NCBI RefSeq assembly: GCF_000143845.1
Contig: NC_014363.1
Span: 605,186 to 669,185, forward strand
Source of the DNA: Olsenella uli DSM 7084
GTDB lineage: Bacteria; Actinomycetota; Coriobacteriia; Coriobacteriales; Atopobiaceae
Direction of reading: 5' to 3'
DNA: 64,000 nucleotides
Made by a program: the position numbers and the translations under genes. The notes beneath the pieces were generated by a model, which was not told the origin of the DNA, made no database searches, and saw only the letters and a program-made list of their open reading frames with translations. Shown in pieces: positions 5,886 to 9,280 of the stretch. Positions within the stretch are counted from its first letter, which is position 1. Each line of letters opens with the position of its first letter.

Positions 5886-7256
5886 ATGAGCTGGTACGAG
5901 GAGTCCGTCATCTATCAGGTGTATCCGCTGGGGCTCACGGGCGCCCCGTACGAGAACGACGGCACGTCCGAGCCCACGCCACGTCTGCTGAAGCTGGTCG
6001 ACGACGGTTGGCTCGATCACATGCGTCGCCTGGGCGTCAGCTGCCTCATGCTGAACCCGGTGTTCGAGAGCGGCTCACATGGCTATGACACCTGCGACTA
6101 CACAGTCGTCGACCGGCGCCTGGGCACCAACCCAGACCTTCGTGCGGTGGTGGACGCCGCCCACGAGCGAGGGATGCGCGTTCTCCTCGACGCCGTGCTC
6201 AATCATGTGGGACGCGGTTTCTGGGCCTTCGAGGACGTGCTCAGGCGGCGTGAGTCCAGCCCGTATGCCGGTTGGTTCAACGTGGACTTTGGTGGTGACG
6301 ACGCCTATGGGGACGGCCTCTCATACGAATGCTGGGAGGGCGTCGACTCCCTGGTGAAGCTCAACCACGCCAATCCCGAGCTCAATGCCTACCTGGCCGA
6401 CGTCATCCGGGGCTGGGAGCGCGAGTTTGGCATAGACGGCCTGCGCCTAGATGTGGCCTACTGCTTGGACCAGGGCTTCTTGCGCTACCTTCGTGAGGTC
6501 GCCGACGAACTTGGCGCTGCCCGCACAGAGCGTCTGGGCGAGAGGGATGCGAAGTTCGTGCTTGTGGGCGAGACCCTGTTTGGCGACTACAACCAGTGGA
6601 TGGGCGATGACCTCTGCGACGCCGTGACCAACTACGAGGCCTACAAGGGCCTGTGGTCGAGCATGAACTCCCACAACATGCATGAGGTCGCCTATGCGCT
6701 GGACCGCCAGAGCGGAAGCCAGCCCTGGAACCTCTACACGGGTCGCCATCTGCTGAACTTTGTCGACAACCACGACGTGGTGCGCATCGCGACCAAGCTC
6801 GATGACGCCCGCCAGCTGCGTCCGCTCTACGGGCTCCTCTTCGGCATGTGTGGCGTCCCATGCGTCTACTACGGCAGCGAGTGGGGCATCGAGGGCGAGA
6901 AGTGTCCCGGTGACCATGAGCTGCGCCCCGCGCTGGATGTGCCCCAGTGGAACGAGCTCACTGACTGGCTGCAGGCGCTTGCGGCCTGTCGCGTGCCGGG
7001 CCACGCTGGGTCGGAGGCCCTTTCGTGGGGAGACTACCACCAGGTGGAGGTCCAGCCCAACCAACTGCTGTTCCAGCGCAAAAGCAAGCGCGAACGGCTC
7101 TTCGTGGCCGTCAATGCGGCTGACGTGCCGTATACCTTCCACTTCGACGCCGGCTGCGGGCGGGCTATCGACGTGATCACGGGCGAGGACCACGACTTTG
7201 GCGGCGGTAGTGAGGTCGCGCCCTTCTCGGCACACTTCTGGCTCTGCGAGCGCTAG
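5886..7256 (+). CDS. GH13 alpha-amylase family glycosidase
   Basis: A 456-residue intracellular alpha-glucan-acting enzyme with no signal peptide. All GH13 regions are present: LDAVLNHVGR (about 101-110), GIDGLRLDV with the nucleophile Asp near 189, LVGET with the acid/base Glu near 229, and NFVDNHD with the third Asp near 297. A short C-terminal beta domain closes the protein. The compact size suggests a maltodextrin or oligosaccharide glucosidase and not a secreted amylase; exact specificity is unknown. GGGAGGAG lies seven bases before the ATG. The upstream GntR gene is the likely regulator. Confidence 0.9.
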   Translation: MSWYEESVIYQVYPLGLTGAPYENDGTSEPTPRLLKLVDDGWLDHMRRLGVSCLMLNPVFESGSHGYDTCDYTVVDRRLGTNPDLRAVVDAAHERGMRVLLDAVLNHVGRGFWAFEDVLRRRESSPYAGWFNVDFGGDDAYGDGLSYECWEGVDSLVKLNHANPELNAYLADVIRGWEREFGIDGLRLDVAYCLDQGFLRYLREVADELGAARTERLGERDAKFVLVGETLFGDYNQWMGDDLCDAVTNYEAYKGLWSSMNSHNMHEVAYALDRQSGSQPWNLYTGRHLLNFVDNHDVVRIATKLDDARQLRPLYGLLFGMCGVPCVYYGSEWGIEGEKCPGDHELRPALDVPQWNELTDWLQALAACRVPGHAGSEALSWGDYHQVEVQPNQLLFQRKSKRERLFVAVNAADVPYTFHFDAGCGRAIDVITGEDHDFGGGSEVAPFSAHFWLCER

Positions 7257-7409: not shown

Positions 7410-7680
7410 GGATGGCAGGGGAGCTTTTGTGAGTCGTTTGGGACGTTGGCTCACAAAAGCTCCCCTACCATCCGTTTTCCAGGCCCTGTGGGATGGGAGA
7501 GGAACTATTGTGACTCTGGTCTCCTGGGCGACTCACAATATCTCTCCTGGCATCCCAAACGGAGCTGATTTGCGGACGTATAGTGAACTATTGTGAAAAT
7601 GATTAAAAAATTTTTCACAAAGATTCCCCTGCCATCCACAGACTGACGAAAACCGGACGGCAGGTGAAGTTCTGTGAAAA
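7410..7680. repeat. Tandem inverted-repeat array (REPIN-like, 3.5 units)
   Basis: A motif of about 25 bases, roughly GGATGGCAGGGGAnCTTTTGTGA, occurs seven times in alternating orientation. Unit 1 is 7410-7433 paired with 7450-7473 (23 of 24 bases complementary, 16-base loop). Unit 2 is 7489-7516 with 7530-7557. Unit 3 is 7574-7599 (degenerate arm) with 7611-7637. A lone plus-strand copy lies at 7655-7680. Units repeat every 79-85 bp with 15-17 base spacers. Arms match their own partner better than arms of other units. The layout resembles paired REP elements of other bacteria, but no transposase gene is nearby. Confidence 0.8.
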
Positions 7681-7721: not shown

Positions 7722-7762
7722 GACAAAAGAGCCCCACCTGGCGTTTGCCGAGGTGGGGCTCC
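7722..7762 (-). terminator. Intrinsic terminator of pyk
   Basis: AGCCCCACC (7730-7738) and GGTGGGGCT (7752-7760) form a nine-pair stem with a 13-base loop. On the minus strand it is followed by TCTTTTG. It lies 75 bp beyond the pyk stop and is oriented for that gene. Confidence 0.75.
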
Positions 7763-7837
7763 ATGCAAGGACCTTGCGGCATCACACGCGCCGCACGCCG
7801 GACGTTGCATGTGCGCGGCGTGCGGGGAAGGTGGCGG

Positions 7838-9280
7838 CTACTGGATCTGGGACACCATCGTCATGTTGGTGGACGTGATGTAGTCACCCTGCGACGGGGA
7901 GGTCTGCGGGTCACCCGCCGTGATGACGACAAGGTCACCGGTGTTGACGACACCCTGCTCCTTGGCGATGGTCAGTGCGTTGTAGCAGGTGGACGAGAGG
8001 GATCCCTGCTCGGTCGTCTTGTAGCCGTCGACGCCCCAGAGGAAGCAGGTCTTGCGGATGGCGTGGTTGGACGGCGACATCGCGACGATGTTGAGGTGGG
8101 GACGGAAGTTGGAGATGAGGCGCGCGGTGCGGCCTGAGTGCGTCGGGCAGATGATGCACTTGGCGTCGACGCGGTCGGCGATCTCGACGGCGGCCAGGCC
8201 GATGGCGGCATTGACGTTGCGCAGGCCGCCGCGGTCGTGGTACTGGTGGCGCTCGGCCAGGTACTTCTCGGTCTCCTTGCAGACGGACGCCATCATCTTG
8301 ACGGCTTCGACCGGGTACTTGCCGGCTGCGGTCTCGCCGGAGAGCATGACGCAGTCGGTGCCGTCGTAGATGGCATTGGCGACGTCCGTGACCTCGGCGC
8401 GGGTCGGACGGGGGTTGCGGATCATGGAGTCGAGCATCTGGGTTGCCGTGATGACTGGCTTGTAGGCCGCGGCGCACTTGCTGATGACCGTCTTCTGGAC
8501 GTGGGGGACCTCTGCGGGTGGAATCTCGACGCCCAGGTCGCCACGGGCGACCATGATACCGTCGGAGTGCTCCAGGATCTCGTCGAAGTTCTTGACGCCC
8601 ATGGCACTCTCGATCTTGGGGAAGATGTAGACGTTGCGCATGCCGCTCTCGGCACAGATCTCGCGGATCTCGTCGACGGCCTCGCCGTTGCGGATGAAGG
8701 AGGCGGCGATGGCGTCGATGCCCAGCTCGCAGCCGAACATGATGTCTGCCTTGTCCTGCTCGGTGACGGAGGGCAGGCCCACCTCGACGTTCGGGACGTT
8801 GACGCCCTTCTTCTCGCCCAGCTCGCCGCCGTTGTCGACCACGCAGTGCATGTCGTTGCCCTCGACGTGGTCGACGGTGAGCTCGATGAGGCCGTCGTCG
8901 ATGAGGATGGTCGAGCCCTTCTCGACCTCCTTCGGAAGCTCCTTGTAGTCGAGGGAGAAGCGCTCTGCGGTGCCCACCACGCCGTCATCGGTGGTGATGA
9001 TGGCGCGATTGCCGGTCTCGAGGGTGACCTTCTCGTGGTTCTCGAGCTCGCCGGTACGGATCTCGGGACCCTTGGTGTCGAGCATGATGGCCACGGGGAT
9101 GCTCAGCTCGTCCGAGATGCGGCGGACGCGTTCGATGTTGTTGCGGTGATAGTCGTGCGAGCCATGGCTGAAATTGAAGCGCGCCACGTTCATGCCGCTC
9201 TTGATGAGCTCGCGCAGGACGTCGTCGCTCTCGGTGGCGGGTCCCATGGTACAGACGATCTTGGTCCTCTTGGTAGACAT
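7838..9280 (-). CDS. pyk: Pyruvate kinase
   Basis: Catalyses phosphoenolpyruvate plus ADP to pyruvate plus ATP, the last step of glycolysis, in the cytoplasm. The 480-residue length is standard, with no extra C-terminal PEP-utiliser domain. The N-terminus KIVCTMGPATESDD and NVARFNFSHGSHDYH, the catalytic segment IFPKIES, and TATQMLDSMIRNPRPTRAE followed by DGTDCVMLSGETAAGKYP are all classic. The C-terminal allosteric domain spans about 355-480. It has a strong promoter of its own (see 9392-9420) and a terminator. The neighbouring lactate dehydrogenase-like gene points to fermentative metabolism of the product. Confidence 0.96.
   Translation of the reverse strand: MSTKRTKIVCTMGPATESDDVLRELIKSGMNVARFNFSHGSHDYHRNNIERVRRISDELSIPVAIMLDTKGPEIRTGELENHEKVTLETGNRAIITTDDGVVGTAERFSLDYKELPKEVEKGSTILIDDGLIELTVDHVEGNDMHCVVDNGGELGEKKGVNVPNVEVGLPSVTEQDKADIMFGCELGIDAIAASFIRNGEAVDEIREICAESGMRNVYIFPKIESAMGVKNFDEILEHSDGIMVARGDLGVEIPPAEVPHVQKTVISKCAAAYKPVITATQMLDSMIRNPRPTRAEVTDVANAIYDGTDCVMLSGETAAGKYPVEAVKMMASVCKETEKYLAERHQYHDRGGLRNVNAAIGLAAVEIADRVDAKCIICPTHSGRTARLISNFRPHLNIVAMSPSNHAIRKTCFLWGVDGYKTTEQGSLSSTCYNALTIAKEQGVVNTGDLVVITAGDPQTSPSQGDYITSTNMTMVSQIQ

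Follow-up and report, generated by a model that had tools for sequence, protein, structure and literature searches.

Dispersed arrays of alternating half-sites in the Olsenella uli chromosome as candidate platforms for a sequence-specific DNA-binding protein

Olsenella uli is a bacterium of the mouth and belongs to a class in which chromosome organization has been little studied. The window analyzed here is a stretch of 64,000 nucleotides, positions 605186-669185 of the single 2,051,896-base contig. In this window, a convergent gap separates a gene for a GH13-type glycosidase (5886..7256, plus strand) from the pyruvate kinase gene, pyk (7838..9280, minus strand), both families being named from sequence. 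The gap contains an array of seven half-sites that starts 153 bp from the 3' end of the glycosidase gene and stops 160 bp from that of pyk. A strong hairpin resembling an intrinsic terminator of pyk is located on the minus strand between this gene and the array, at approximate coordinates 7730-7764.

The half-site spans about 24 bp, is not palindromic and has the consensus GGAYGNSWGRNGARNTWNTGTGAR; its seven copies follow each other in the order + - + - + - + at intervals of 40-42 bp. The whole array (7410..7677) consists of an outer left site and a full core of six. The optional outer site, rank 0, occupies 7410..7432 on the plus strand (35.2 bits). The core comprises inverted pair A, with rank 1 (7451..7473, minus strand, 31.9 bits) and rank 2 (7491..7513, plus strand, 35.7 bits); central pair B, with rank 3 (7533..7555, minus strand, 31.0 bits) and rank 4 (7574..7596, plus strand, 24.6 bits, the weakest site in this array); and inverted pair C, with rank 5 (7615..7637, minus strand, 31.5 bits) and rank 6 (7655..7677, plus strand, 31.2 bits). 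The latter site is the one that the initial annotation took for a lone half. The linker between ranks 1 and 2 (7474..7490), with a T-tract TTTT at 7475-7478, is mirrored by the linker between ranks 5 and 6 (7638..7654), with an A-tract AAAA at 7649-7652. The initial annotation had recognized here a motif of roughly 25 bases that recurs seven times with alternating orientation, with 23 of the 24 arm bases complementary in its first unit, and both descriptions hold. The motif used in that annotation recovers 6 of the 7 half-sites with up to three mismatches, compared with none expected from 100 shuffles of the window, and a search of the window supports the statement that it does not recur elsewhere in this stretch.

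In the rest of the genome, the motif is found at 28 further places, so the uniqueness that, according to the initial annotation, would have argued against a repeat family does not hold. The mismatch search of the genome gave 64 matches, and a looser pattern gave 163, with no matches to either control (the reversed motif in the case of the former). Among the matches to the looser pattern that were listed, namely all 85 on the forward strand and some of the 78 on the reverse strand, every one belongs to a full or partial array, and neither solitary motifs nor simple doublets occur among them outside partial arrays. PWM scans delineated 168 half-sites that group into 29 clusters. Intact arrays, with at least six sites, make up 22 of these clusters, and about 7 are degenerate or fragmentary. 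The information content, summed over the per-position values, is about 29 bits per half-site. Because only single sites were used to train the PWM, the orientation and spacing of the sites count as independent evidence. The G+C content reported for O. uli VPI D76D-27C is 64.7% (PMC3035265), and it is mostly 0.62-0.68 across the genome stretches read, which include the surroundings of the matches and a few control stretches.

The layout of the arrays is highly regular. Orientation strictly alternates in every array, and all 22 intact arrays share the core - + - + - +, i.e., three inverted pairs, to which an extra outer plus-strand site is added on the left in 11 arrays and an extra outer minus-strand site on the right in 8, with both present in 2. 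Of the 137 intervals between successive sites, 129 measure 40, 41 or 42 bp. The eight deviant intervals are 51 bp (three cases), 52 bp (three cases), 31 bp and 35 bp (one case each), the last of these adjoining a weak site; seven of the eight correspond to three or five helical turns instead of the usual four (p about 1e-4). The linkers between ranks 1 and 2 and between ranks 5 and 6 are invariably 17 bp long (22 of 22 arrays), with an A-tract beside the outer core site. A-runs of at least 3 are present at rank 1 in 17 and at rank 6 in 18 of the 22 arrays (35 of 44 together), compared with 4 of 22 at rank 3, 3 of 22 at rank 4 and 0 of 63 at ranks 0, 2, 5 and 7. Given the fixed core, the 17-bp linkers and the A-tracts at mirrored ranks, the plan of the array is two-fold symmetric about the central pair. 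Across all arrays, the length of the linkers between ranks 2 and 3 and between ranks 4 and 5 (18 or 19 bp) varies with their edges, AAA/TTT-type edges accompanying 18 bp and GT..AC-type edges 19 bp.

Another interpretation is that the transcript of an array folds into stems with a role in termination, in the 3' UTR or in a small RNA; the position of the arrays near gene 3' ends agrees with it. Such a structured RNA or termination element appears very improbable. The RNA of the window array does fold far better than shuffled sequences (z -7.6), but it fares no better than chimeras, that is, arrays rebuilt from random same-rank sites of all arrays. For the 22 arrays, the mean z of natural sequences against these rank-preserving chimeras is -0.01 (SE 0.21); because the chimeras fold equally well, the RNA fold is a by-product of alternating sites. 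The annotation had also proposed, from inner bases that match within each unit, that the hairpin is selected or that the arms are copied together. The matching is real for its first unit, the rank 0-1 pair (arm identity 0.743 versus 0.680, p 0.0065, the sole significant case among many tests), but it does not extend to the arrays in general: across all +/- pairs, arm identity in the register of the annotation is 0.719, the same as for arms from different arrays (0.719), and in the other hairpin register it is 0.706 versus 0.716 between arrays. Joint copying of arms is not supported either, with a half-site identity of 0.716 within and 0.714 between arrays. With no excess in either the arm-matching permutations or the chimera folding, selection on a hairpin or RNA was rejected. 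Furthermore, changes of spacing by whole helical turns would be meaningless for RNA, pyk has its own terminator ahead of the window array, and the Rfam gathering search of the window found one tRNA only, with no match to the array. Terminators near the arrays are neither depleted nor enriched (1 of 29 versus 8 of 81, p 0.44).

Dispersed extragenic repeats of bacteria are usually interpreted as REP or REPIN hairpins that are moved by RAYTs, and the initial annotation called the array REPIN-like. REPINs are doublets that are nearly identical to one another, show compensatory changes in the hairpin and are associated with a RAYT (PMC3116915). The O. uli arrays resemble them in that a motif dispersed between genes occurs in inverted pairs, and the alternating extragenic arrangement near gene 3' ends, with more than 100 copies of the motif, is what a REPIN or BIME family mobilized by a RAYT (Y1) transposase would produce. 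The dispersed, extragenic, alternating and BIME-like layout stands, whereas membership in the REP/RAYT family appears hardly tenable. The annotation saw no Y1 transposase gene nearby, and indeed Y1_Tnp (PF01797) has no match in the whole genome at E<=10, whereas the same search was positive in 10 of the 14 controls. The arms show no compensatory changes; the mean pairwise identity of the sites is about 0.71-0.72, far from near-identity; the solitary motifs and simple doublets of such families are missing among the listed matches; and the non-palindromic consensus begins with GGAYG, without a GTAG/GTGG-type tag (see the REP list in PMC2817692).

Comparison of the arrays with each other provides some indications of their history. 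Array 55059 aligns with the inverted array 1706194 over 315 bp at 72% identity. In this pair, the closest, linker identity reaches 57%, compared with a mean of 36%, and homology stops at the outermost half-sites. The window array is 73% identical to the inverted array 706276. Such full-length homology of some pairs indicates that the array unit was once duplicated to new places. Most pairs, however, have little in common beyond the sites: the best linker identity between arrays is 57-59%, so that no pair is recent, and the central linkers are near random (identity 0.26-0.29), whereas the identity of the sites is at the PWM equilibrium (0.714 observed, 0.699 expected). Considering that the linkers are nearly random while the sites keep the identity set by the PWM, it seems likely that the copies have not moved for a long time and that purifying selection acts on the sites and their spacing. 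Examined for target-site duplications, the flanks of the arrays, which are old copies, show no common sequence.

These relationships are also an argument for the main rival explanation, namely that the arrays are old copies of a non-autonomous, MITE-like mobile element whose half-sites bind a lost or unrecognized transposase. Like MITEs, the array copies share their full length, including the linkers, and have defined ends at the terminal half-sites (55059 versus inverted 1706194), and degenerate copies exist. This scenario, which we consider unlikely although by no means negligible, accounts for the copying but not for the maintenance of the sites: there are no recent copies, and neutral decay cannot yield sites and spacing that are intact in 22 copies despite nearly saturated linkers. 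Moreover, all the listed half-sites of this genome lie in arrays and no pair of them flanks a gene, so that they reveal no related autonomous element, and the other transposase family searched, IS256, is represented by a single broken relic. An IS256-type transposase had been considered as the binder of the half-sites on account of the terminal repeats of this family, and was rejected. The relic (PF00872, contig positions 491133-491631) is frameshifted, is the only member of its family in the genome and has no half-sites nearby.

The position of the arrays relative to genes, which rests on our own gene calls based on codon usage, shows a modest bias. All 22 intact arrays are intergenic, with 10 in convergent, 10 in tandem and 2 in divergent gaps. 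Divergent gaps are under-represented (2 of the 22 arrays compared with 9 of the 26 long gaps in this window; p 0.045), whereas the excess in convergent gaps is not significant (p 0.13). When partial arrays with both neighbors called are included, the array is closer to the 3' end of the upstream gene in 10 of the 11 tandem gaps. The neighbors are unrelated housekeeping and transport genes, for example those for EF-G, LeuRS, MetRS, HisRS, MnmA, glycerate kinase and DcuC, and because they are functionally unrelated, regulation of a common gene set is unlikely. This bears on the possibility that the arrays are operators of a transcription regulator of nearby genes, which multiple phased sites, reminiscent of cooperative operators, and the two arrays called in divergent gaps might suggest. 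With 10 of the 22 arrays in convergent gaps, those in tandem gaps located away from the promoter side, and no common function among the neighbors, this possibility appears improbable.

Beyond this genome, the family was not detected. A dyad model produced no credible match in 139 relatives from the same family (best E 0.017, the noise level) or in 397 other genomes across the class, some of which overlap the family set. An exact inverted-pair pattern, with 42 matches within the stretches of this genome that were read, had none in the contigs of 85,000 species or in viral contigs, and phages and plasmids contained no homologs of the arrays. A detector that does not depend on the motif, on which full O. 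uli arrays score 116-168, found no non-coding arrays of any motif in 795 kb sampled from G036 and G047, two near relatives whose sequence is contiguous enough, where its top matches are low-complexity or coding-type repeats. One such false positive in G047 (L144:7480-8220) is a long coding repeat of the Lys/Ala type, reminiscent of histone H1. The literature on Olsenella, searched for arrays of this kind, yielded nothing relevant. Since the genomes searched include no second species of the genus, and some collections may omit records very close to the window, the family may reach other Olsenella.

Taken as a whole, the evidence inclines us, with some reserve, to the view that the intact arrays, about 22 in number and including that of the window, are chromosomal platforms for a candidate sequence-specific DNA-binding protein. 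Conserved geometry with drifting linkers is the mark of protein assembly on double-stranded DNA. The changes of spacing by whole helical turns, together with the symmetric A-tracts, point to a platform for protein binding on the double helix, and the persistence of sites and spacing next to linkers that are mostly near random suggests selection for such binding. Successive sites alternate in orientation and are four, or occasionally three or five, helical turns apart; the putative protein would bind each 24-bp half-site, so that all sites face the same side of the helix. By helping the DNA to bend, the A-tracts would allow six to eight bound units to form a single compact particle of about 230-310 bp in which the DNA is wrapped or looped. 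Under this scenario, duplication dispersed the platforms in the distant past, and they have remained stationary and under selection ever since. The least supported step is the further suggestion, made by analogy with BIME-2 (PMC2817692), that these complexes influence the structure or topology of the chromosome where transcription units end; the unrelated neighborhoods, the avoidance of promoter-side gaps and the retention of sites while linkers drift are the reasons to consider it.

One would not expect a core device for structuring the chromosome to be absent from all the relatives searched, as this family is, and this counts against the platform interpretation. This absence makes a domesticated or selfish origin possible; perhaps the platform is lineage-specific and derives from a domesticated mobile element. 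The two explanations may be combined if a mobile element was domesticated to serve as a docking site. More broadly, although this is offered tentatively and with some doubt, the arrays might represent a new bacterial chromosomal element, a two-fold-symmetric, helically phased, A-tract-bent platform of six to eight sites with fixed geometry. Each of its roughly 22 copies would assemble a discrete nucleoprotein particle at the end of a gene, and the element would organize or insulate the chromosome in a single lineage. If confirmed, this would be a different way of building chromosomal docking sites.

Among the known systems, the closest in layout are the BIMEs of enterobacteria, BIME-2 in particular, which have been described as bound by gyrase, IHF and Pol I and are suggested organizers of the chromosome (PMC2817692). 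The likeness lies in the regularly spaced, alternating, extragenic motifs. In contrast to BIMEs, which are composed of REP palindromes, the O. uli arrays consist of non-palindromic 24-bp half-sites without the REP tag and are distinguished by a fixed site number and symmetry, helical phasing, A-tracts, identity of only about 71% and the lack of a RAYT. The arrays may be regarded as a variation on dispersed extragenic repeats, possibly with a mechanism of their own. The F plasmid centromere sopC is likewise an array of similarly spaced sites, about 43 bp apart and bound by a partition protein, but it is a single direct-repeat array, unlike the 22 dispersed alternating arrays of O. uli. SlmA, Noc and MatP each act on the chromosome through tens of dispersed sites; these are short palindromes found singly or in small groups, whereas each O. 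uli locus is a fixed platform of six to eight sites.

The start of the contig resembles an origin region, and the sign of the GC skew flips, roughly, near 0.9-1.0 Mb. The longest stretch without an intact array (897.9-1373.5 kb, 476 kb) spans the approximate terminus and harbors two degenerate arrays, 1155589 and 1307531; compared with random placement, a gap of this length is not significant evidence of clustering of the arrays along the chromosome (p 0.085). Two pairs of intact arrays, 1589705/1593884 and 1648933/1652888, are each separated by about 4 kb.
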